IMG/VR virus record: IMGVR_UViG_3300037264_001305
Location: 1-28,317 of that record
Source of the DNA: a virus
Length of the DNA: 28,317 nt
Strand: one strand, 5' to 3'
This document shows positions 8,439-26,020 of the stretch, piece by piece. The position numbers and the translations under genes were made by a program. The stretch's first letter is position 1, and the number at the start of each line of letters is the position of its first letter. Under the pieces are notes generated by a model, which saw only the letters and a list, made by a program, of their open reading frames with translations, was not told the origin of the DNA and made no database searches.

Positions 8439-9467
8439 GTGTCGACAACGATCACGTACCCTGACGAGTTCTTCACGACAACCGCGGCCTACCATCTCAA
8501 GGCCCTGCGCCCGCAGCAGTTCCGCGTCAACCGCGTAGCTGAGGCGTTCCTGTCGATGAAGGCGCCCGCGGAAGGCGAGCGGGTCATTATCCCGTTCGAC
8601 GTCAACGAGCACAGCCGGACCACCCGCGTTGTTCACGGGTACGAGTCCGCCGACATGACGTTTCAAACGATTTTCAAGCCCGGCACGGAAGAATGGGCAT
8701 TTTTCCAGCGCCCCGTCGGGTATTCCTGGGTGGACGACGCCAAGAACTCCGGACGCGCCAAACTCATCAGCCAGATCGAGTCTCGGACGGCCAATACCAG
8801 CGAGGCGCTGCTCCAGCAGCTTGAGCGGCAACTGCTCAAGGGGACCGTCACGGCCCTCTCCGACATCAAGACCTTGAACGGCGCAGACGTCGCCACCGGC
8901 TTCATCGAGGCCGCCGCGGTCGGCGCACAGACGAACGTGGTCCACAACATCAGTAAAGCCACCTATGCCGCCCGCCCGCAGTTTCAGAACCAGTTCTACG
9001 ACATGCTCGGCGACTTCTCGGCGAACGGACTCCCCGGCTTGCGCGATGGGCACACCCGGGTCAAGGAGTTGACCAAGGACCCGACGAAGCTCAAGGGCTT
9101 CTGTTCAATCAACGCCGGGATCAACTACGGCAACATCGTCCAGCCGCAAGAGCGGTACATGCCCAAGGACGGAACCGATGCGGTCAACATGACCACGGTT
9201 ATCGACGGCATCAAGTACGAGATGAGCCACGCGATGCCGAACGACGGGACCGCTACGGGAGTGGCCGACAAGGAGTGGAGTTTTTTGCTCCTCGACATGG
9301 ACAAGATCAAGCTGAACACCTTCCCGGGCCTGGCAATGGACATGACGCCCTGGCGCGACGTGGGCGGCGGGCACAACGTCAAGGTCGCGTTCTTCAAGTT
9401 CGGCGGCCAGACGACTATTCAGCATTGGGGAACTACGTTCCTTGGCATCGGCGGCGACACCTTCTGA
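8439..9467 (+). CDS. Major capsid protein
   Basis: This 342-residue protein follows scaffold and a strong promoter, as expected for the most abundant head protein. It lacks low-complexity tracts and has a mixed alpha/beta composition compatible with an HK97-fold coat. An N-terminal arm (about 1-50) is followed by RVIIPFDVNEHSRTTRVVHG (about 48-67). A long helical spine region is rich in Gln/Glu/Leu (about 105-150, LISQIESRTANTSEALLQQL). The C-terminal part is beta-rich, with FGGQTTIQHWGTTFLGIGGD at the end. The GTG start is supported by TGGAG at 8428-8432, six bases upstream. The call rests mainly on gene order, size and composition rather than a diagnostic motif. The next gene starts 17 bases downstream. 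Confidence 0.85.
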   Translation: MSTTITYPDEFFTTTAAYHLKALRPQQFRVNRVAEAFLSMKAPAEGERVIIPFDVNEHSRTTRVVHGYESADMTFQTIFKPGTEEWAFFQRPVGYSWVDDAKNSGRAKLISQIESRTANTSEALLQQLERQLLKGTVTALSDIKTLNGADVATGFIEAAAVGAQTNVVHNISKATYAARPQFQNQFYDMLGDFSANGLPGLRDGHTRVKELTKDPTKLKGFCSINAGINYGNIVQPQERYMPKDGTDAVNMTTVIDGIKYEMSHAMPNDGTATGVADKEWSFLLLDMDKIKLNTFPGLAMDMTPWRDVGGGHNVKVAFFKFGGQTTIQHWGTTFLGIGGDTF

Positions 9468-9484: not shown

Positions 9485-9997
9485 ATGGCCCAGACCCCAG
9501 CCCCTAACGAGGGCGTTGCCCTCGTCAACTTCAAGCTCGACGACGTGACGCAGTCCGCCGAGTGCGCGAGCCCATCCGGCTCGGACACCGTCGGAAGTGG
9601 TTCGGTACACGATGAGTTGTTCTTCAACTCATCGGGCGCCACCATTACCGCTGGCGACTTGGTCGACATCGACCCCGCGGCCAACACCGTATCGGCGGGC
9701 CGCGAGGTCAAGACGCACCCGGCGACGGTGAACACGGCTACGACCGTCGGCGTGGCTATGGAAACAGTCGTTACCGGCGCCTGGATCCGCGTGCGGCTCA
9801 AGGGACTTATCAACCAAGCGGTCGACGGGTTCTTTGCGAACGTGGCCGACGCCGCCGTCGCGGGCGACCCCCTCCGCCCCGCCGCCGTGGCGGGACGTCT
9901 GAACGTCGGAGTCTACGGCGTGGACAACATCGTCGCCGTCTGCCTCGCCGACGCCGACGCGAGCAACGACAGCGCGCGAATCCGCCTACTGCTCTGA
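9485..9997 (+). CDS. Capsid decoration / head-stabilising protein
   Basis: This is a 170-residue, beta-rich, Ala/Val/Asp-rich protein directly after the coat gene. The ATG at 9485 has a GGAG four to five bases after the capsid stop; the same frame continues upstream only as an Arg-rich shadow of the capsid gene. The pattern from about residue 50 onwards (GATITAGDLVDIDPAANTVS, then VGVAMETVVTGAWIRVRLKG, then VADAAVAGDPLRPAAVAGRL and NIVAVCLADADASNDSARIR) resembles small capsid cement proteins of the DUF2190 type. In those, a short beta-barrel carries 'internal value, time-dependent, low impact' style repeats of Val-Gly-Val-Ala. Its role would be to stabilise the expanded capsid lattice. Another possibility is a head fiber base. 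Co-transcription with the capsid gene is likely, because a hairpin follows it. Confidence 0.6.
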   Translation: MAQTPAPNEGVALVNFKLDDVTQSAECASPSGSDTVGSGSVHDELFFNSSGATITAGDLVDIDPAANTVSAGREVKTHPATVNTATTVGVAMETVVTGAWIRVRLKGLINQAVDGFFANVADAAVAGDPLRPAAVAGRLNVGVYGVDNIVAVCLADADASNDSARIRLLL

Positions 9998-10074: not shown

Positions 10075-11433
10075 ATGCAACTCGCCGGCATCCGAAAGCG
10101 CATCGAGCGGGATATCCGACACGCCCCGGGCGTCGAGGCACACCGCGAGGAGATCCTCGACCGGGTCAACGACAAGCTACAGGAAGTAGTCCTTGCAGAG
10201 GACTGGTCTTTCCGGCGCCGTATTCAGCTTCTCCGCCTCAAGGCCGACGTCGAGGTCGCGCCCGCTGACTACGTCGCCGCCGCCTTCAACATCGCGACCG
10301 ACCTCCCCACGGGCTGGGACGCGACCGACGTGGAGCTTCTACCGGGCGCCGCGCTCTCGTTTGTGGCGCCTACAGCGCTCGGTCTGACCGCCGACTACAT
10401 CATCGAGCGCGCCACGCTGGCCGGGATCACGCTCACGATGTACCTGGACCCCCGGTACACCGGCGCGGGCTCGCTGGCGGGCAGCGAGGACGTGTTCATC
10501 CGGCATCGGCGCTACCTGCTCCCGGTCGACTGCGCGAACGTGGACGTCCTCGTCCTGCGGGAGACGGAGGAGGGCTACATCGAGGAGACGCCTCTCTCTG
10601 AGGAGGCGCGGCTCCTGCTACAGGACGACGACGACCCAGGCCGCCCCCGCACCTACACGATTGCCCCCAATCTGCCGGGCGCCGTGCCACTTCGCTCCGG
10701 CAGCTACTACCCCCACGACATCGCACACCCGCCCTTTGAGGCCCCAGCCATCGCTTCTGGCCTGGGCGGACTCCTCACCCCGGGCGACACCTACGAATAC
10801 CGGTATGCGTGGCAGTGGGGGGGCCTGGTCAGCGAGCCCTCTCCCGCCGCTCGCGTCACCATCGAGCCGGGAGACAGCGCGGTCACCCTCTCCGCCCTGG
10901 AGGTAGTCGCCGTGGGTTACGGGCGCCGCAAGCAGGTATTCCGCCGCAGGATCTACGCCGACCACGAGGGGGCTTGGATCACTGTCGGCTTTACCGACGG
11001 GGACGGGCTGACCTTCACGGACGCCGGAACTGTCGTCTGGCCAGGGGCGAACCCCACGACGGTAACGCGCGAACGGACGTACCACCCCGGCGGGCTCCCG
11101 AAGTCCATCCGGATCTGGCCGCCGACGGACGCGGACATGGAGGTTGAACTCCACTACCACAGCAAGGTCCCCCGCCTGGAGGCTGAGAGCGACGTCCCGG
11201 AGATGCCGGAGGAGGCGCACATGCTCCTCGTGCATCACGTCGTCCGTGAGCTTGCGGGAGGAGCAGAGGGGAAACAGGTCCAGAAGCTCGCTGAGGCCAA
11301 GATCGTAGAACTCATGGGCGTACTCACCAGGACATACCTGGGGCACCGCGGGGCCCGCTTCCAGCGGAAGCCCATCCTCCGCTCCGGGGGGCAGGGCGAT
11401 ATCCTCGTTGGCCCGCTGAACTACCTTGGCTGA
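10075..11433 (+). CDS. Head-tail adaptor (connector) protein with Fn3-like insertion
   Basis: This 452-residue protein follows the head genes and precedes the nozzle, which matches the adaptor ring that bridges portal and short tail (comparable in place to P22 gp4 or T7 gp11). The N-terminal helices (1-45) and a C-terminal helical part (about 375-425) look like the adaptor core. The segment KSIRIWPPTDADMEVELHYH (343-362), followed by VPRLEAESDVPEMPEEAHML (365-384), is the typical phage adaptor pattern of a strand, 'SK/P...L....D.P.LP', then a helix. Between these sits a beta domain (about 232-322) with LTPGDTYEYRYAWQWGGLVS, SEPSPAA and FTDGDGLTFTDAG, which looks like an Fn3/Ig-like fold. This insertion makes the protein much longer than minimal adaptors. 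It ends inside the start of the nozzle gene. Confidence 0.72.
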   Translation: MQLAGIRKRIERDIRHAPGVEAHREEILDRVNDKLQEVVLAEDWSFRRRIQLLRLKADVEVAPADYVAAAFNIATDLPTGWDATDVELLPGAALSFVAPTALGLTADYIIERATLAGITLTMYLDPRYTGAGSLAGSEDVFIRHRRYLLPVDCANVDVLVLRETEEGYIEETPLSEEARLLLQDDDDPGRPRTYTIAPNLPGAVPLRSGSYYPHDIAHPPFEAPAIASGLGGLLTPGDTYEYRYAWQWGGLVSEPSPAARVTIEPGDSAVTLSALEVVAVGYGRRKQVFRRRIYADHEGAWITVGFTDGDGLTFTDAGTVVWPGANPTTVTRERTYHPGGLPKSIRIWPPTDADMEVELHYHSKVPRLEAESDVPEMPEEAHMLLVHHVVRELAGGAEGKQVQKLAEAKIVELMGVLTRTYLGHRGARFQRKPILRSGGQGDILVGPLNYLG

Positions 11434-13420
11434 CCGTACCATCCGCACGCCTCCCCTCCGGGGCATGGACGACCGGCTCTATACAGACCCGGCCTCGCCC
11501 GAACTCCTGCGGCACGTCTACGCCTCCCCGGATGGCGCCTGGCGCACGTCGGGCGGCTTTCAGCAGGTCGCCGACGCCTTCGCCCAGACCGGCGCGGTCT
11601 ACTCGCTCGCATGGTTCACGCAGCACCAGGGGGGCAGGCAATGGCTCTGCCTCGAGCACGAGGTCGCCGGGGCGCTACGGCTCTCCTATGTGGATTTCTC
11701 GTCTGACTCGCTGGTCACAATCCAGTCAGGGCGAACCCTCGTTCGCGGGCCCTGGGCTGGAACGTCCTACGTGGAGCATGGCTCATGGCTGTACGTGCTC
11801 AACGGGTACGACGGGCCGGTTCGCTGGAACGGCAAGGAGCGCGTAAACGTCGGTTTCAGCCAGATCCCGTCGCCGCCGTCCGTCGCCGTCGCTGAGGAGG
11901 ACCAGACCGTCGCCTCCTACTCTCCGGCCCCGAAGGACTTCCAGGGCAGCAGCCAGCTAGGGATCGGCGAGAACGGGGACGCCGCGGCCGGCGCCGCTCC
12001 CTTCCGCGTCGGCTACCGGAGAACCTGGGTCAACGACCTGGGCCAGGAGTCGCCGCCTTCTGGCTTCGCATGGATCGCGGGAGAGAACGAGGAGCCTACG
12101 GCGCTCCTGGTGGCAGGCCGCAAAAGCGCCATCCTACACTGCTCCTCCGCCCCGTCGAACGTCAGGGGACAACGGCTATGGCGCACGGTCAACGTGGCTG
12201 GGGATGGGTTTCTGGGCCTGGAGGAGCTTCCGGTTTACCTCGTGGCGGAGGTCGGCACCGGCGGCGCCTTCGACTACGTTGACGGCAAGAAGGACGGGGA
12301 CCTTGGGCCGCTTCTGGACGTGGACAGCCTTGGGCTGTGGCCATCCCGGGCCCGCTTCGCGTCCTTCTTCAAGGGCTGCCTGTTCGTGGACGACGAGGTC
12401 GGCGTCCGCTACAGTCATCCCCTGTTTCCCGAGCAGATGCCCAGCCAGAACCAGATCCCGCTCGGCGACGTCACCGGCGGCCCCACCATGGGATTCAAGG
12501 CGACGAAGAACGCGCTCGTGGTGTTCAAGCGCAGGGGGATCTACCTCATCAAGGGCGACCCCGTAAACGGGTTCTACAGCGAGACGCTGACCGAGGACAA
12601 GGGGTGCGCCGCGTCCAGAAGCATAACGGAGATCCCGGGGCTCGGGACTATGTTCGTAGACGACGACGGGCCGAACGTCCTGCTCGGCGCCCTGGAAAAC
12701 ACCGGCAGCACGACCGAATGGCGCTTCCTGGGCGAGGGCATCGGCAACGTCTGGCGGCGGAAGGTCAACAAGAAGGCGCTGGCGTCGTGTCGGGCCGCGC
12801 TCAACACCCGCGACCGTGAGCTATGGCTCCAGGTCCCGACCGGCGGCGACGACCGCCCGAAGCTCGGGCTCATCTACCACTACGACACCGGCGGATGGTC
12901 GACTCGACCCGAGTTTCCCTTCTCTTGCCTCGCCGAGTCGCGCGACCACCGCCGCCTGCTGTTCGGGGGCTCCTGGGACACGGGCGCCAACACCCGCGGC
13001 GTACTGGTCTACACGCGGGGCCACGACCTCGACGGGACAGCGGTTACGTCAGAGGTGCGCTCCGCCTGGCTCGACACCGGCACTAGGGCGGTCCCGAAGT
13101 CCGTGGTCGTCCACGCCCTAAACCTTGGGCGGCCCTTTTCGTTCCAGTGGCACGCCGACCGCGACGCCGAGACTTGGCTGGGCGGCGCAGACACCTCCCC
13201 GACGTGGACCGACAGCGAGCGCAACGACCCCGTCTGGGGGATGGCCCGCTGGGACGTGGACGTATGGGCCCCGCGCGTCCCGGTGCGCCGCCGGGTCGAC
13301 CCGACGAAGAAGGCAGCGCATGAGTTCCAGTACCGGCTCACCAGCACGAAGCTCGGGCTCGCCCGCGCCGACGTGCTAGTCGATGGGCCCACCGACTTCG
13401 TAAAGCGGGGAGCGGAGTAA
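11426..13420 (+). CDS. Tail nozzle / tail tubular protein B-like
   Basis: The 664-residue product begins at TTG 11426, overlapping the adaptor stop by eight bases. Podovirus nozzle proteins (T7 gp12, P22 gp10) are of similar size and form a six-subunit beta-propeller-like tube below the adaptor. Features that fit are a beta-rich sequence throughout and repeated propeller-like segments such as GTSYVEHGSWLYVLNGYDGP (about 112-131), FASFFKGCLFVDDE and NALVVFKRRGIYLIKGDPVN (about 369-388). An inserted Ig-like part contains YRRTWVNDLGQESPPS, a typical 'V...G.ES.PS' motif of this family. The C-terminus (about 580-664) is Trp/Asp/Arg-rich. The gene ends in TAATG, a one-base overlap with the next gene. 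A TTG start at 11426 is the longest choice; no ATG lies nearer than 11465. Confidence 0.8.
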   Translation: MADRTIRTPPLRGMDDRLYTDPASPELLRHVYASPDGAWRTSGGFQQVADAFAQTGAVYSLAWFTQHQGGRQWLCLEHEVAGALRLSYVDFSSDSLVTIQSGRTLVRGPWAGTSYVEHGSWLYVLNGYDGPVRWNGKERVNVGFSQIPSPPSVAVAEEDQTVASYSPAPKDFQGSSQLGIGENGDAAAGAAPFRVGYRRTWVNDLGQESPPSGFAWIAGENEEPTALLVAGRKSAILHCSSAPSNVRGQRLWRTVNVAGDGFLGLEELPVYLVAEVGTGGAFDYVDGKKDGDLGPLLDVDSLGLWPSRARFASFFKGCLFVDDEVGVRYSHPLFPEQMPSQNQIPLGDVTGGPTMGFKATKNALVVFKRRGIYLIKGDPVNGFYSETLTEDKGCAASRSITEIPGLGTMFVDDDGPNVLLGALENTGSTTEWRFLGEGIGNVWRRKVNKKALASCRAALNTRDRELWLQVPTGGDDRPKLGLIYHYDTGGWSTRPEFPFSCLAESRDHRRLLFGGSWDTGANTRGVLVYTRGHDLDGTAVTSEVRSAWLDTGTRAVPKSVVVHALNLGRPFSFQWHADRDAETWLGGADTSPTWTDSERNDPVWGMARWDVDVWAPRVPVRRRVDPTKKAAHEFQYRLTSTKLGLARADVLVDGPTDFVKRGAE

Positions 13421-16101: not shown

Positions 16102-17822
16102 TCCAGCAGATCGGAACCGCCTCCGGGGTTTCCGAGGTCCCGGTGTTCTACGTCCCGGCGCCAAGCCAGCCGGTAAACGCGGCAGCGGCGTTCCTTAACG
16201 CCTTCATGGGGACTAGAAACCCGTGGGCGACGGAGTTGTTCTACCGGCGGCTCACGGCGATGGACCCGAACGAGCGGGCCAAGGCCCTGCTCCGAGCACG
16301 GCAACTGGAGAACGAGGCCGAGCAGACGCGAGCGAACGAGCGGAACGTCTCGCTCCAGGCAGGAAACAGTCTAGCTGAGGCGCTTCTCCGCAGCCTCGAC
16401 AACTCCGCCGACAACCAGACCACGGCCGATATCGAGGGCGCAAAGATCGAGTCTGCGCAGTTCTTGGCGCAGACGGCGCTCCCGGAGGACCCGAATCAGA
16501 AGGCCCTTGTGGTGGAGATCCAGAACCAGATGACGGCGGCGACGGCGGCGATGAACAAGGGCGACGTCGCCGCGGCCGACGAGGCGCTCAACGCGGCTAA
16601 CGCCAAGATGACACAGGTTCTTGCGAGCACGGCCAACAACCCGCAGAAGGCGGCGATCTACAACGCCGTTAGCCAGGCGTCCCGCGGCCTCCAGACCACC
16701 AGTGCTATCCAGCAGGAGGTCCTCTCCCGCCTGGGCGTGCCCGACCTCGCACCCCCGACCCCGCCCCGCACGCCGGGCGCGGGGCGCGTGGACATCGGCG
16801 GGTTCGTTGAGCAGATGGACGCGCTTGGGATCCCGCTCGGCGGGGGCGGTTCTGTCCGCGTCGGCGAGCGAACCACGGGCCCCGTGCCGGAGGCCGCTCC
16901 CGTGCCGGATGGCGCGGCGCCCAGGCTCCAGCCCGTACCCGGTCGGTTCCGCGGCACGCCCGGCAGCCAGGCTGAGGAGGACTTCTACCTCGCCCCACAG
17001 ACGCCCACGTCGGCACCCGCGGCTGAGCCCGCGCCCGCCACGGCTCGCGCCGTCGGCGATGGTTTGTCAGAGTTCGCCCGCTACGTCGATGGCCTGTTCG
17101 CCGACCCCGACGCCGGACTCGGCAAGGTGGGAGATCCGATCTTTCGGCGCGAACGCCGCGGCGACCGCCGCAGCCGAGAGGCGACGGAGGAATTCATTCG
17201 CCAGGCGGCGCCCGGGGCGTCGAGCGATCTACGGCTTGCACTCCAGGGGGTCCCGCCCGGCCCCACGGCAGGCCGCCAGATCCGCAAGGACCGCGCCGCC
17301 ATCGCCGGGGAGTACGCGGATCTGGTCCGGGCCAACGTCGCGCAAGCCGGAACGCAGGTCGGACTCCTTCCGGGCGAATCCGAGTCGCCCACGCCGCCGC
17401 CGCCCACGCCGCCGCCGCCCACGGGGCCGGCGACGAAGCCGACGCTCCGCGAACGGATGGCCTCGCTTGTGCCGCGCAAGGAGCCGACCCGCGAGGCAGT
17501 CCGGGCGCTACCCGTCGCCGAGCGAGAGGCCATGTCTGCTACCTCGACGAGAGCCGCCGCGAAAGAGGCCGGGTTCCGGGGCAGCGATGCGCGCGAGGTG
17601 GCCCGAGTTGGACGGCTGGCCGCCGTCTCCGCGGCGGAGCGTGCGGCAGAGGAGAAGCGGCTTGCAGACCGCGCCGCCCTGGAGGGGGAGGTCATGGGCG
17701 AGTTGTTCGTTGAGCCCGTGCGCGAGTCCCAGGCCCGGCAGAACGCCGACGCGGAAGCCCTGCGGCTCATGGCAGAGGAGCGGGCGCGAAAGAAGGCGGA
17801 CGCCGATGTCTACGCCCGATGA
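16098..17822 (+). CDS. Ejection (internal virion) protein 2, Pro-rich linker
   Basis: The product is 574 residues, starting in an ATGA overlap. The first 200 residues are helical and Ala/Gln-rich, including AAAAFLNAFMGTRNPWATEL (about 28-47). Residues about 215-345 are Pro/Gly/Ala-rich and probably unfolded. A charged helical part follows (about 345-425), then a PTPPPPTPPPPTGP stretch (about 432-445), then a helical, Arg/Glu/Ala-rich C-terminus. I infer an ejected virion protein from its neighbours and composition. There is no lysozyme or transglycosylase active-site motif that I can recognise. The last 17 bases overlap the next gene, which uses another frame. A competing frame over 16621-17805 is open but Arg/Pro/Ser-rich, so it is a shadow. 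Confidence 0.6.
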   Translation: MIQQIGTASGVSEVPVFYVPAPSQPVNAAAAFLNAFMGTRNPWATELFYRRLTAMDPNERAKALLRARQLENEAEQTRANERNVSLQAGNSLAEALLRSLDNSADNQTTADIEGAKIESAQFLAQTALPEDPNQKALVVEIQNQMTAATAAMNKGDVAAADEALNAANAKMTQVLASTANNPQKAAIYNAVSQASRGLQTTSAIQQEVLSRLGVPDLAPPTPPRTPGAGRVDIGGFVEQMDALGIPLGGGGSVRVGERTTGPVPEAAPVPDGAAPRLQPVPGRFRGTPGSQAEEDFYLAPQTPTSAPAAEPAPATARAVGDGLSEFARYVDGLFADPDAGLGKVGDPIFRRERRGDRRSREATEEFIRQAAPGASSDLRLALQGVPPGPTAGRQIRKDRAAIAGEYADLVRANVAQAGTQVGLLPGESESPTPPPPTPPPPTGPATKPTLRERMASLVPRKEPTREAVRALPVAEREAMSATSTRAAAKEAGFRGSDAREVARVGRLAAVSAAERAAEEKRLADRAALEGEVMGELFVEPVRESQARQNADAEALRLMAEERARKKADADVYAR

Positions 17823-20800
17823 GGTAGCCGCCGAGCGCCGCCGCCGCCTGGAGGCCCTCGTCCCCCCGGCGACGCCGACGCCTCCGGCCCTGCTGGAGCA
17901 CCAGGCGGCGCAGTACGACGCCTATCTGACGCGCGGGGAGCGCGACCTTCTCATCGGCGACGCGATCAAGGCGAAGGCCACCGAGTACGAGGCAAAGGGG
18001 ATGCTCACGTCGGAGGCCATGACGCAGGCCGCCAGCGACGTAGGCGCGGCGGTCGGAACGCGCCTCCCGGAGGAGAAGCCTACGGTCTTTGGGGCCATCT
18101 CCCAGGCCGCTGCGGTTCGGCGGACCATCCCGGGCGACCCGCGCCAGACCGCCATAGATGCGGCCCGACGACGCGCAGAGCCGCCAGCCGTCGCCGGGGC
18201 CCGGATGCTCGGTCTGGTGCCCCAAACGCTGGAGGAGGAGCAGGGGAGCGCCCGTGCGCGGGCTGAAACGGTCTTGGAGCTTGGCTCACTGGCCGCCAAG
18301 GGGCTCGATGCCCTGTCGGTCGGGGGTACGAAGGTCGGGCCCGCCGTCGAACAGATACGGGCGGGCGCAGGCCGACGACTTTCGGAGATGTACCCGGATG
18401 CGCCGCAGACGAGGGCGGAGCGCGGGATTATCGCCGCCGGGGACGCGGGGCTTCCGCTGGAGACGGAGGAGGGGGCCGCGCTCCGGTTCTATGGGAGCTT
18501 GGCCCCCGCCCTGGTGCAGGAGTACGCGCTGGCCACCCCAACCGGGGTGGGCCTTCGGAAGGCGGGCGGGCAGATGGCCGGGCCGCGCGACATCATGGCC
18601 GCGGTGGAGACGCACCAGCAGGCGGGCGACGACGTCCCCACGGCGCTCGGGAAGGCGTTCGGCGAACTGGACTTCGGGCTCGCGCGGCTGGAGGACGTGC
18701 TCGGTACGAGGCCGGAGGATCGGAGCCTGCTGGCCGACTCTACGCTAGACGAACGCTCGGAGTGGAGCAAACCCTTCTTTCGGGCCATGCACAAGGTCGA
18801 ACAGGGCCGGATGCTGGGCGACGACCTCGAGGCGGCGGCGCCACAGGACGACTCGATAGCCAGCCAGGGGATCCGAAAACTCGCCTGGGGCACGGGTCTG
18901 GCGGCGGAGTTCCTGGTGCCCTGGGAAGGGCCGTTCATGCTCCCGTTCAAGGGGGCCAAGGCGGCCAAGACCGCGGCTAAGCTCCCGGAGGGGGTCGACC
19001 GGGTCGCGGCGTTCGCGCGGATCCTGCAGGGGCGGGGCTCGGAGATCCCCGACATGCTCGCCCGGAGCATGACCGCACGGGCAGAAGCCGGGGAGCGCGT
19101 AGAGGATCTGTACGCACTGCTTCCGGCGGAGCTTCGGGCCACGGCGGACGAGATGCTCGCTGAGGACGGGATCACGGTTCGGCGACCGAGCGAGGCCCGA
19201 ACCCTGGGCGGGTACGAGACGGAGCAGATATCCGCGCGTGAGCTTGCGGCCCTGCGGGGCCCGGCCCGGGAGCGAGCGGCAGAGCAGATGCGGGCGGAGT
19301 ATGGCGCCGCCGGACCCGGCCCAGACGCCGCGCGTGTTCGGGCGGCGATGGGAGACGAGGCCCTTACGCTTCACTTGACCGACAAGGACCGCGCCCTGCT
19401 CGCCCGCGCCGCCGGGGGCCGCGCAATGGCTGGGCGGATCCTCGACGAGCCGGTTGCCCCCGGCCCAGACGCCGCGCGTGTTCGGGCGGCGATGGGAGAC
19501 GAGGCCCTTACGCTTCACCTGACCGACAAGGACCGCGCCCTGCTCGCCCGCCCCGCCGGGGGCCGCGCAATGGCTGGGCGGATCCTCGACGAGCCGGTTG
19601 CCCGGTCGCTGGCCTCCGAGGACGTCCGCAACGTCCTGGGCGTGGAGCCGCGCGCCGCCATCCTCCGTGGCGAGCGAGAGGCGCGAGCGGCGCAGATCGC
19701 GCAAGCCGGGGAGGCCCTTGCAGACGTCCGCCCGGCCGTCCCCGGGGTCATCAAGCAGCAGGCGAAGGAGTACCTCGACAACCTTGCGGGTCCGGCGCTG
19801 GCGGAGATCGAGAAGGCTGAGGCCGACCTGGCCGACCGGCTCCTGGCAGCCATGGGGAAGGCCACGGCGGCGGTCCAGGCGAAGGGCCTGGACCGGTCCC
19901 TGCTCAACATGAACGACTACATGACCTGGGCCTACGCGCGGCAGGTTGCCCGCAAGGGGCTAACGCCGGAGGAGGCGCGATCCGCGGGGCTCGGCGGCCT
20001 CCCGCAGGGCGGCGGGTTCGAGAAGCTACGCCACCTGGACCCGACGCAGACGCCGCACGCGCCAGACTACCGACTCCTCACCAGCGGGGGCGAACTTGTC
20101 GAGGGCGGCGACTTGCGCCGCGTGCTCACGACCATGCTCCACCGTCAGAACTTCGGGGACGAGGTCCAGTTCCTTGACCAACGCAGCGTGGCGAAATGGG
20201 CGGGTTTCAGCCACAACCCGGCCAACATAGCTAAGCGGATGAACCGCAAGGGCAAGGCCGCAGCGGTCGGCGCTCTCAAGTCGGATTATCACTTTGCCTC
20301 TCCCGCCGAGAAGGCCGTCGTGGACGGGCTCGCCGCGGGCCCCCGTGGGCAGATCAGCACCGACAAGATCCTCGCCTCTATACAGGACTCGACGAGCCTG
20401 ACCGGACTGCCACCGGAGTTTACGGAGATGGCGTCTCGGTTCTTCCGGGCCGTCTTTGGCGGCTCGCCAACGCCCCGGCATGGGCGGGTCCGGACTCTCG
20501 ACGCGCGGGAGGAAGCCATCGTCGCCGCCGTCGGGGACGCCATGCGCGCCCGGTGGAGTTCGGCACTCGGAACGGCCGACGTGGTCCAGCCTGTGGCGGG
20601 CATGGTCGTCAGCCGGTCGGACTACGACGCGATGAAGCGGCGGATCCTGTCGAACCGGGCCGGCGCCGGCTACGTCCCCCTTGGGAGCTTCAAGCTGGGC
20701 GCGCTGACCCCGGGTCGTCGTGGGCGGCTACTCTCCTGGGAAGCCGGAGGCGAGGACGCAGCACGCCGATACTTCGCGCGGTACGGGATTGAGTTGCCAG

Positions 20801-23383: not shown

Positions 23384-23773
23384 ATGGCGCGTTCGTTCCG
23401 TAAGGAAATAACCATAGACGTCATCTCCGTAGGCGCCGGGGTCGTATGGGGCAACGCCACCATCTTCCCAGAAGGCGTCGCGGGCGTGGTAACCGGGCTC
23501 ACGGTTCGCGTTTCCGCCGCCCCGGGCGCGGGCCCCGCGGACCTGTACCTGGCCACGAACGGCGAGCTTCTCTCCGCGGTCCCCGCCGTAGAGGACTACG
23601 TGGTCAAGGCGGCGGCGGTCCCGCTCACGGTTTCCGCCACGGCGGCAAGCCTGGATACCGGCTTTGACTTTCCGCCACGGTTCAAGCGCGGGCTCACCCT
23701 GGCCGCGGCCGTTACCACCGTGGCGGGCACATACACCCTGGTTTGGGTCGTCAGCGGGGAAACCGACTCGTGA
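23384..23773 (+). CDS. Small beta-rich virion protein
   Basis: The 129-residue product starts at ATG 23384 with AGGAG five bases upstream; the frame is open farther left only as a shadow of the giant gene. A basic N-terminus (MARSFRKEITIDVIS) is followed by alternating hydrophobic and polar residues, Val/Ala/Gly/Thr-rich with few charged residues, pointing to a beta-sandwich (VAGVVTGLTVRVSAAPGAGP; GTYTLVWVVSG at the end). No enzyme motif is seen. Position before the related genes at 23770 and 24130 suggests a capsid- or tail-surface protein. The function is unknown. Confidence 0.62.
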   Translation: MARSFRKEITIDVISVGAGVVWGNATIFPEGVAGVVTGLTVRVSAAPGAGPADLYLATNGELLSAVPAVEDYVVKAAAVPLTVSATAASLDTGFDFPPRFKRGLTLAAAVTTVAGTYTLVWVVSGETDS

Positions 23774-24129
23774 GCCAGGATGCGCTGGTTGTTCGGCCTC
23801 CGCCATCCGCCGCAGGGCTGGAGGTGGCAGAGTTCGCCGTGCCGGCCAACCCCGGGGTCGGCAGCGTGAGCTTCGCCACCGACCGCAAGATCCACCTGCT
23901 ATGGCTGGTCACGACCACCGGCGGGGCTGGCGATGCCTTCAACGTCAACAACGACGGAAACACGCTGGCGGGCGCTGGCCTCGAAACCATCCGGCCAGAC
24001 GACCAGGGCTATCACTACGCGGAAACCCTCATCCTCGCCGAGCGTACCGTGCTCGCCGGCAACCTGATTGAGGCGACGCTAACGGGCGCGCAAACCGCGC
24101 AATGTTTTTTGCTACATGGGCCGGCGTAG
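23770..24129 (+). CDS. Small virion-type protein with MSQDALVVRPP N-terminus
   Basis: The start is GTG 23770 in a GTGA overlap, giving 119 residues. Its first 11 residues, MSQDALVVRPP, are nearly the same as those of the following gene (MSQNALVVRPP), while the rest differs. The body is beta-rich (VSFATDRKIHLLWLVTTTGG), with a Gly/Asn loop (GDAFNVNNDGNTLAGAG) and a Gln/Tyr/His-rich middle. The shared N-terminal peptide separates as a docking or packaging tag on different cargo domains, an inference set out under findings. No known enzyme motif is present. Confidence 0.65.
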   Translation: MSQDALVVRPPPSAAGLEVAEFAVPANPGVGSVSFATDRKIHLLWLVTTTGGAGDAFNVNNDGNTLAGAGLETIRPDDQGYHYAETLILAERTVLAGNLIEATLTGAQTAQCFLLHGPA

Positions 24130-24927
24130 GTGAGCCAGAACGCACTAGTCGTCCGGCCGCCTGCCGCGCAAGCCGAGACGGTAACGGCGCCGGCCGCGGG
24201 CGCAGCGGAGGGCCTCGCCGTCAACACCGTGCGTACCTGGCACATTGACCTAACCGACGTCGGCACCGTCACTTGGGGCGCGGGGGACGACGGCGTCACA
24301 AAGCAGATCGTGACGCAACACGGGACCATCGACGTAACGTGTGTTTATAACGGCGCTACTGGCGCAACCATCAATAGCACCGGCGCCTTCTTTACCGGGG
24401 GAAACAATGCCTCGTTTTCCTTCGATCTGGGCGACCTCGACCCAGCCTGGACCGCCGCGGACGGTATCCATGAATGCATGGTCGAGGTAGCGAGCAGCGC
24501 CAACCCCGGCGCATGGGCGTTCGCCTGGGGCCAAGACGCCAGCAATCGCGCGTTCGCGACGCGGAGCGAGACGGCGCAGAACGTGGTGGCAGGCAGCCAG
24601 ATCCTAGGCGGCTTCGCCGCCAACGTGACACAGGCTGGTATTGCCTCTCCCGTCCTGCGCATGTCCTCTGTCCTCCACGGGTCGCGACACAAAATCTGGC
24701 ACGACGACGTGGGCGGCGACGGGTTCTCCGGCGACGGCACGCTGCGGAACGGCCCTTCGCAAGGGCACGCCGACGCGGGCAGCGCCGGGGCCTCAAACTA
24801 CTTCAGTGCCGCGGGCGGCGGGAGGCTGCTCCTGTTCTGGAACAACATCGCCGGCAGCAGCGCCAAGTTCACCGACATCTACCTGCGACACCTGACGGCA
24901 GAAGCCGGGGAGCTACAACTACCATGA
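24130..24927 (+). CDS. Virion-type protein with MSQNALVVRPP N-terminus (265 residues)
   Basis: Begins with GTG directly after the previous TAG, with no gap. After the 11-residue shared motif come an Ala-rich linker (about 12-35) and a long Gly/Asp/Thr/Ser/Asn-rich region. The latter contains GDDGVTKQIVTQHGTIDVTC, a HDDVGGDGFSGDGTL loop with several Asp-Gly pairs, and a C-terminal RLLLFWNNIAGSSAKFTDIY strand region. The overall pattern is a beta-sandwich typical of viral surface or carbohydrate-binding domains. No catalytic motif is seen. A structural or adhesion role is inferred. Confidence 0.65.
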   Translation: MSQNALVVRPPAAQAETVTAPAAGAAEGLAVNTVRTWHIDLTDVGTVTWGAGDDGVTKQIVTQHGTIDVTCVYNGATGATINSTGAFFTGGNNASFSFDLGDLDPAWTAADGIHECMVEVASSANPGAWAFAWGQDASNRAFATRSETAQNVVAGSQILGGFAANVTQAGIASPVLRMSSVLHGSRHKIWHDDVGGDGFSGDGTLRNGPSQGHADAGSAGASNYFSAAGGGRLLLFWNNIAGSSAKFTDIYLRHLTAEAGELQLP

Positions 24928-25133
24928 GCGCGCCCGTCAAGTGGCTGGGTAACTCCCTCTCGCCGGGCGTCGTAGAGCGCGCCAGCCTGATCAGCTTGCA
25001 GGTCGGCGTGACGTGCCCGGAGTGCGCCGCGCTCTACGACGACCACGGCGAGGCCCATGGAGCACTGGCGCACCCCGGCGACTACATCGGCGCCGACGGC
25101 TCGGTTGTCCCCCGCGCCGCAATGGAGGGGTAG
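24924..25133 (+). CDS. Small protein with CPEC motif
   Basis: This 69-residue product starts at ATG 24924, in an ATGA overlap with the preceding stop. It has a single Cys pair, CPEC, at about residues 31-34, and a C-terminal Gly/Asp/His-rich part with HPGDYIGADGSVVP. One CxxC alone does not establish zinc binding, although His residues nearby could complete a site. I recognise no family. Its position just before the membrane protein at 25134 hints at the lysis region or a late accessory, but this is positional only. Confidence 0.5.
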   Translation: MSAPVKWLGNSLSPGVVERASLISLQVGVTCPECAALYDDHGEAHGALAHPGDYIGADGSVVPRAAMEG

Positions 25134-25538
25134 GTGGCTGTGGACCTGGACAGTGTGGCAACAGAGGTGCGTGAGGTGCGGCGCGAGCTTGGCGCCCACG
25201 CCCAGAAGGAGGAGTTAGCCATGGCAGAGTCCAACCTGCGCCTGGAGACGATCCAGACGGACAGCGCGAAGGGAACCGCGGCCATGATCCGCCTGGCCGA
25301 CATCGCGGAGGAGCGCGCCAACTTCGAGCGGGAGGCGCGCACCCGAGCGAATGAGGAGGCCACGAAGGCGGCGGACTGGTGGCGGGGGCTCGTCAGCGGA
25401 AACGCGAAATGGGCCCTGCTTGTAGTCCTGGCGGTCGTTGCGCCGCAAGCCATACCCTACGTGCTCGCAGCCTACGGCGTCGCCCCGGCAGCCGCTCCCG
25501 CCATAGCCGCCCCCGCCGTCGCGCCGGCGGCGCCTTGA
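25134..25538 (+). CDS. Membrane protein of the lysis region (holin/XhlA-like topology)
   Basis: Starts with GTG directly after a TAG and encodes 134 residues. The N-terminal 80 residues are charged and helical, likely coiled coil (EVREVRRELGAHAQKEELAM and EERANFEREARTRANEEAT). A single hydrophobic segment follows at about 93-115 (KWALLVVLAVVAPQAIPYVL) and then an Ala/Pro-rich tail. This N-in, one-span, C-out layout resembles XhlA/holin accessory proteins; a Pro-rich outer tail is also seen in some spanins, though these have the span at the N-terminus. The next gene overlaps it by TTGA and looks like a cell-wall hydrolase, which supports a lysis function. The family itself is not established. 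Confidence 0.55.
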   Translation: MAVDLDSVATEVREVRRELGAHAQKEELAMAESNLRLETIQTDSAKGTAAMIRLADIAEERANFEREARTRANEEATKAADWWRGLVSGNAKWALLVVLAVVAPQAIPYVLAAYGVAPAAAPAIAAPAVAPAAP

Positions 25539-26020
25539 GCCTCCCCTTCGAGACGCGCCTCCTCCTCGCTGCGCTGGCGCACGGCGGAGGCCGCCGCTAC
25601 GACCGCCGCATCACGGGCGACTTCGAGACGGACTGCTCCCGGATGCTGTACGGAACCCTCTGCGGTCTGTATGGGGGGCGCGTGGAGGCCGAGAAGGCCG
25701 CGCTCCACATCGAGGGCCGCCCGATCCAGCCGTGGAGCCCTGTAGAGGCAACCGTGCGGCTCGGTTTCGGTTCTGCCGTCGCCGCCCCGATGCCTGGGCG
25801 TTGGCATGTAGTCCAGGGCTGGCGAGCGGGCGGCGAGGTCGACGTCCCATGGAGCGGGGGGCACTCCTTCCTGTGGCGGCATCCGGCATCCGGCGGGCCC
25901 GGCGTACAGGTCCAGGCGAACGAGGGGGTCGGCGCCTTCGTCGAGGCTGCCCAGACGTGGGAGCAGCAGACCGCCGCCTACAAGGCCGGCGTCCGCCTCG
26001 CGGTGCTGGACGGAGCGTGA
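25535..26020 (+). CDS. Candidate endolysin, Cys-His (NlpC/P60-like) hydrolase
   Basis: TTG 25535 in a TTGA overlap gives 161 residues; no better start lies upstream in this frame. The sequence contains TDCSRMLYG (Cys34 followed by Ser, as in the D-C-S of NlpC/P60 peptidases), a WHVVQGWRAGGEVDVP segment (90-105), and GGHSFLWRHP (His110). Cys34 and His110, perhaps with Glu130 or Asn129, would form a papain-like active site. Such enzymes cut amide bonds in peptidoglycan. No cell-wall-binding domain or signal peptide is visible. Lying next to a one-span membrane protein, it could be a small non-canonical endolysin. An immunity-type or structural role cannot be ruled out, since the residue match is short. 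Confidence 0.5.
   Translation: MSLPFETRLLLAALAHGGGRRYDRRITGDFETDCSRMLYGTLCGLYGGRVEAEKAALHIEGRPIQPWSPVEATVRLGFGSAVAAPMPGRWHVVQGWRAGGEVDVPWSGGHSFLWRHPASGGPGVQVQANEGVGAFVEAAQTWEQQTAAYKAGVRLAVLDGA

Follow-up and report, generated by a model that had tools for sequence, protein, structure and literature searches.

Why would two adjacent phage genes whose products are otherwise unalike begin with the same 11 residues? The question is raised by a 28,317-base linear viral record (IMG/VR record IMGVR_UViG_3300037264_001305), which we analyzed at its full length and refer to as the window. On its plus strand, P0001 (23770-24129) encodes a protein of 119 amino acids and P0002 (24130-24927) encodes a protein of 265 amino acids. 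The GTG start of P0001 shares bases with the TGA that ends the gene before it, and the GTG start of P0002 comes directly after the TAG that ends P0001, in the same frame. As read from the plus strand, the first copy of the shared peptide is (M/V)SQDALVVRPP (23770-23802) and the second is (M/V)SQNALVVRPP (24130-24162); GTG is the start codon in both genes, and the literal readings are VSQDALVVRPP and VSQNALVVRPP. Ten of the 11 residues are identical, and the sole change is between Asp and Asn, just as a first-pass annotation of this sequence had described. Overall, the observation is real and non-random. Interpreting the shared start as a docking peptide is plausible but not proven, and it comes near to a principle that is already known.

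The nucleotide differences between the two copies indicate what has been conserved. The 33-base starts differ at eight bases; seven of these are third codon positions, and the eighth is the first base of a codon (P = 5e-4 for at least seven of eight at third positions, hypergeometric). Six codon pairs have synonymous differences, which is the number given by the first-pass annotation, and six of the seven fourfold-degenerate sites have changed. The similarity begins precisely at the GTG: 15-base blocks upstream of the two genes match at 3-5 of 15 positions, which is the chance level. It also stops sharply, at residue 11; the remainders of the two proteins score at the shuffle mean in local alignments (z = -0.1), so the earlier statement that they do not align holds for the sequences. 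BLASTP reports a 57-residue alignment between the two proteins (42%), which is driven by the motif and by an Ala/Pro-rich stretch that lies right behind it in P0002 (about residues 12-30). The extension past the motif to residue 57 has no independent signal.

Given the proteome's own composition, two starts would agree at nine or more of ten positions with a probability of 4.6e-10 (about 1.6e-7 across all gene pairs), so we rejected a chance match. We also ranked pairs of starts from every start codon in the window and in 108 loci (1.2 Mb) of related phages, and the pair in the window was the strongest once DNA-level repeats and overlapping repetitive open reading frames (ORFs) were excluded. 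A recent duplication of the DNA was rejected because of the unrelated upstream bases, the third-position bias, and the changed fourfold sites. A regulatory repeat was rejected as well, as the upstream bases match at the chance level and the fourfold sites are saturated. (The tail-fibre-like protein contains the pentamer ALVVR and the nozzle-position protein contains NALVV; we deemed both of these partial matches coincidental.) The sharp start at the GTG, the chance-level flanks, and the low match probability thus point to an old shared start. Furthermore, the third-position bias and the saturated fourfold sites imply purifying selection on the peptide and not on the DNA, as the first-pass annotation had argued. 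From this comparison, we consider it well supported that the two starts are homologous, are old at the DNA level, and have been kept by peptide-level selection.

For a control, we used a locus from a related phage (L046) in which a start was duplicated recently. Two ORFs on its reverse strand (near positions 18554 and 19556 in reverse-complement coordinates) have nearly identical starts: about 95% identity extends over the first 18 codons and the 60 bases before them, and the remainders are unrelated. The three differences in the coding part all fall on the first base of a codon. The pair in the window is different in kind.

What follows the shared peptide in each protein? We found no convincing homologues of P0001 or P0002 in IMG/VR, INPHARED phages (E up to 10), PHROGs, Pfam, NCBIfam, or the PDB sequences, and neither protein matched a depolymerase or tailspike family. 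Because homologues are lacking, the structural models are poor. The model of P0001 has low confidence (predicted local distance difference test [pLDDT] 52; predicted template modelling score [pTM] 0.48) and suggests an eight-stranded sandwich that is jelly-roll-like from about residue 15. Residues 1-15 are disordered in the model and have the lowest confidence, and most structural matches begin at residues 11-16. If this low-confidence model is right, then the shared peptide lies outside the folded domain of P0001. The fold matches are to generic jelly-rolls or beta-sandwiches, with Foldseek E values no better than 3e-3 and VIA-align Z scores of up to 9.5. Among them are a pentameric capsid protein of a metagenomic phage (4dmi/4e27), a baseplate protein from a Klebsiella phage, and C1q/TNF domains; we did not identify P0001 from any of these. 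The model of P0002 is unusable (pLDDT 35). A layout of tag, linker, and body would fit both proteins and is unproven. In the P0001/P0002 interval, we found no promoter-like site, and a single weak terminator-like hairpin (near 24086) was within the range of shuffles.

The order of genes in the window is typical of a short-tailed phage. It includes a terminase (with a weak but clear PHROG match), a portal-position gene, a major capsid protein (8439-9467), a tail-fibre-like protein, a 664-residue structural protein in the nozzle position (11426-13420), and a very large protein of 1,843 residues. (The very large protein contains an in-frame tandem duplication of a 144-base, or 48-residue, unit at 19315-19603; the copies are 98% identical.) A scan with a TerL profile yielded 80 loci. 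Two clear relatives have structural genes that are 30-50% identical to those in the window: IMGVR_UViG_3300031576_000219 (L003/L013) and 3300032087_004422 (L004/L014). The second record stops before the position of interest, and the comparison that follows rests on L013. There, the large protein is again followed by P0003, a conserved 129-residue protein that is encoded just upstream of P0001 in the window (23384-23773, plus strand; 35% identity to L013:8348-8740) and does not have the motif. Downstream of P0002, the window encodes a small CxxC protein of 69 residues, which also lacks the motif (24924-25133, plus strand), and then a 134-residue protein with a hydrophobic, membrane-type segment (25134-25538, plus strand), whose homologue lies farther downstream in L013 (16030-16524). 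The interval from P0003 to the membrane-type protein is 1.4 kb in the window versus about 7.3 kb in L013. Because the interval in L013 carries different genes, we conclude from gene order that P0001 and P0002 are in a variable cassette, which ends with the CxxC protein and is flanked by conserved neighbors. The membrane-type protein is followed by a 161-residue ORF (25535-26020) with Cys and His residues and no family match; by its position and by eye, it is possibly a lysis enzyme.

Among the relatives that we examined, we found neither homologues of P0001 or P0002 nor the motif. There were no matches to the motif in 25 related records when one mismatch was allowed, and none of the ORF starts in the 108 related loci were closer to the motif than to shuffled motifs. 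The nozzle-position protein was present in all 26 of the records tested, including that of L003. A scan of IMG/VR for MxxxALVVRPP-like sequences gave 21 stretches, all of which were short, off-frame, or internal, and a relaxed scan for the MSQ form gave two unconvincing stretches. Scanning 85,000 prokaryote genomes for M.Q[DN]ALVVRP gave three stretches and no plausible relative. By these scans, the sequence of the peptide is new to the collections searched. The first-pass annotation had proposed looking for the motif at the N-termini of proteins in relatives; because the relatives lack the tagged genes themselves, not finding the motif there neither supports nor refutes the idea.

The explanation that we favor, and to which we give about an even chance, is that an N-terminal docking peptide attaches two small accessory proteins to a single virion site. 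In each protein, a short flexible linker would connect the tag to a body, and the two bodies would differ. The peptide would bind one common receptor site, which might be on the capsid surface, on the neighboring conserved beta-protein P0003, or on the tail, and the phage would thereby attach two different bodies at one site. The pair would probably go back to a tagged gene that was duplicated in tandem; the body was then replaced or diverged beyond recognition, and the tag was kept. The docking of different cargo, as suggested in the first-pass annotation, is plausible because the tag seems to lie outside the fold, because the variable cassette sits between conserved virion genes, and because there are published precedents (see below). 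The partner and the location in the virion are the parts of that suggestion that we infer. The same annotation also raised the possibility of a packaging signal, for which we found no support. Separately, the 170-residue protein encoded after the major capsid protein (9485-9997) matches Phage_cement_2 below the threshold (PF09956, E = 0.004) and is probably a capsid cement protein, which would make it a candidate partner for the tag.

Several points weigh against a docking peptide. The comparison rests on two sequences only, and no relative that we examined carries P0001 or P0002, whereas the usual proof is conservation across phages. That either product is part of the virion is itself something we infer. 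We did not detect a T4gp10-like adapter among nine proteins from the window, using Pfam and an incomplete record; detecting these adapters often requires a profile-profile search. Finally, as noted above, the P0001 model is of low confidence, and the P0002 model is unusable.

The chief alternative is that P0001 and P0002 are paralogues along their whole length: one gene was duplicated in tandem, both proteins still have the same fold, and the N-terminus is merely the slowest part to change. It might then be, for instance, a subunit-contact strand or a swapped arm and not a separable tag. This would account for two adjacent genes on the same strand with homologous GTG starts, and both proteins do appear to be beta-rich in the predictions; the weak BLASTP extension to residue 57 also points this way. 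However, once the tag is removed, the similarity of the two proteins is that of shuffled sequences. P0002 is also more than twice as long as P0001, the similarity breaks off abruptly at residue 11, and residues 1-15 are outside of the predicted fold of P0001. We consider whole-length paralogy to be rather unlikely. Another way to obtain two similar starts is for a start segment to recombine into a second gene and to be kept only because translation initiates well from it or because it makes the N-terminus stable. L046 illustrates that starts are copied in this group of phages, but in the window, the bases upstream of the two genes are unrelated. Also, the fourfold sites are saturated, so any function at the level of DNA or RNA would have been lost, and the retention of 10 of 11 residues requires a constraint on the peptide. 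A relic of this kind seems improbable.

A single TAG (24127-24129) separates the two ORFs, which share a reading frame, so amber suppression could produce one protein of 385 residues with the motif repeated at the start of each part. We rejected this reading of TAG as sense. TAG also ends other genes in the window (such as at 1084, 13984, and 23335) whose continuation would be out-of-frame nonsense, which implies that it is a real stop. Another TAG-GTG junction occurs at 25131, and the gene downstream of that junction is separate in L013. In addition, the second GTG lines up with the start of the first gene, and no suppressor tRNA was found. We think it very improbable that P0001 and P0002 are read as one protein. 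The TAGGTG junctions themselves, with a TAG stop and then an in-frame GTG start (24127-24132 and 25131-25136), are possibly an arrangement for termination and reinitiation. ARAGORN reported a minus-strand tRNA-Pro at 17330-17414, inside a coding gene, which is probably a false positive.

As for how general the peptide might be, we are doubtful that MSQ[DN]ALVVRPP is a portable, 11-residue virion-sorting tag that brings small, mutually unrelated accessory domains to a single docking site. If it were, then new surface functions could be gained by putting a domain behind the tag. For now, this isolated pair of genes is a clean example of selection at the peptide level.

How does this pair compare to known systems? 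The first-pass annotation considered the tag to be possibly undescribed, and this is correct for its sequence but not for its kind: short N-terminal docking peptides on different phage proteins have already been described. In phages K1-5, K1E, and SP6, conserved N-terminal hepta- and undecapeptides dock the tailspikes to an adapter, the second receptor-binding proteins of KP34-type phages carry MALxxLV, and the second receptor-binding protein of KP32 docks via a conserved N-terminal peptide (PMC6872550, PMC13082707). As in those phages, the peptide (of 7-29 residues there) is at the extreme N-terminus and is followed by unrelated bodies. It is also found at a locus of broken synteny, a feature that Latka and colleagues used to locate the genes for receptor-binding proteins (PMC6872550), and it may allow two proteins to use one adapter. 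Unlike those systems, the cargo here is two proteins of 119 and 265 residues instead of large trimeric tailspikes, which are usually beta-helical depolymerases; no adapter was detected among the nine proteins from the window; and only one phage is known to have the peptide.

Capsid decoration proteins offer another parallel. Some of these proteins bind the capsid with an N-terminal arm (the lambda gpD type, P74-26 gp87, and P23-45 gp88), and in the beta-tulip decoration proteins, the arms are disordered until they are bound to the capsid (PMC7602432). P0001, as modelled, would likewise be a small beta-rich protein with a disordered N-terminal segment. In contrast to decoration proteins, the window has two dissimilar proteins with a common arm, and the beta-tulip fold and the capsid binding are established for decoration proteins and not for P0001. 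A third parallel comes from the spore filament protein BclA, whose N-terminal domain docks on trimeric BxpB and suffices on its own for attachment to the surface of the particle (PMC10470788). BclA also combines a short N-terminal peptide with a jelly-roll-type C-terminal domain, and its fold is among the C1q/TNF-like folds that weakly match the model of P0001. Nevertheless, BclA belongs to a bacterial spore system and has no sequence relation to P0001, so this is an analogy only.

The tagged pair thus would resemble the K1-5/SP6/KP32 and decoration-arm systems by function. We do not classify it as a member because the cargo proteins are not tailspikes, because no gp10-like adapter was detected, and because the relatives that we examined lack the tagged genes. 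If the tag does dock small and unlike proteins to one virion site, then it would provide a short, genetically encoded handle by which cargo could be attached to a podovirus-like particle, and the principle of docking by a peptide, known from large tailspikes, would apply to small accessory proteins as well.
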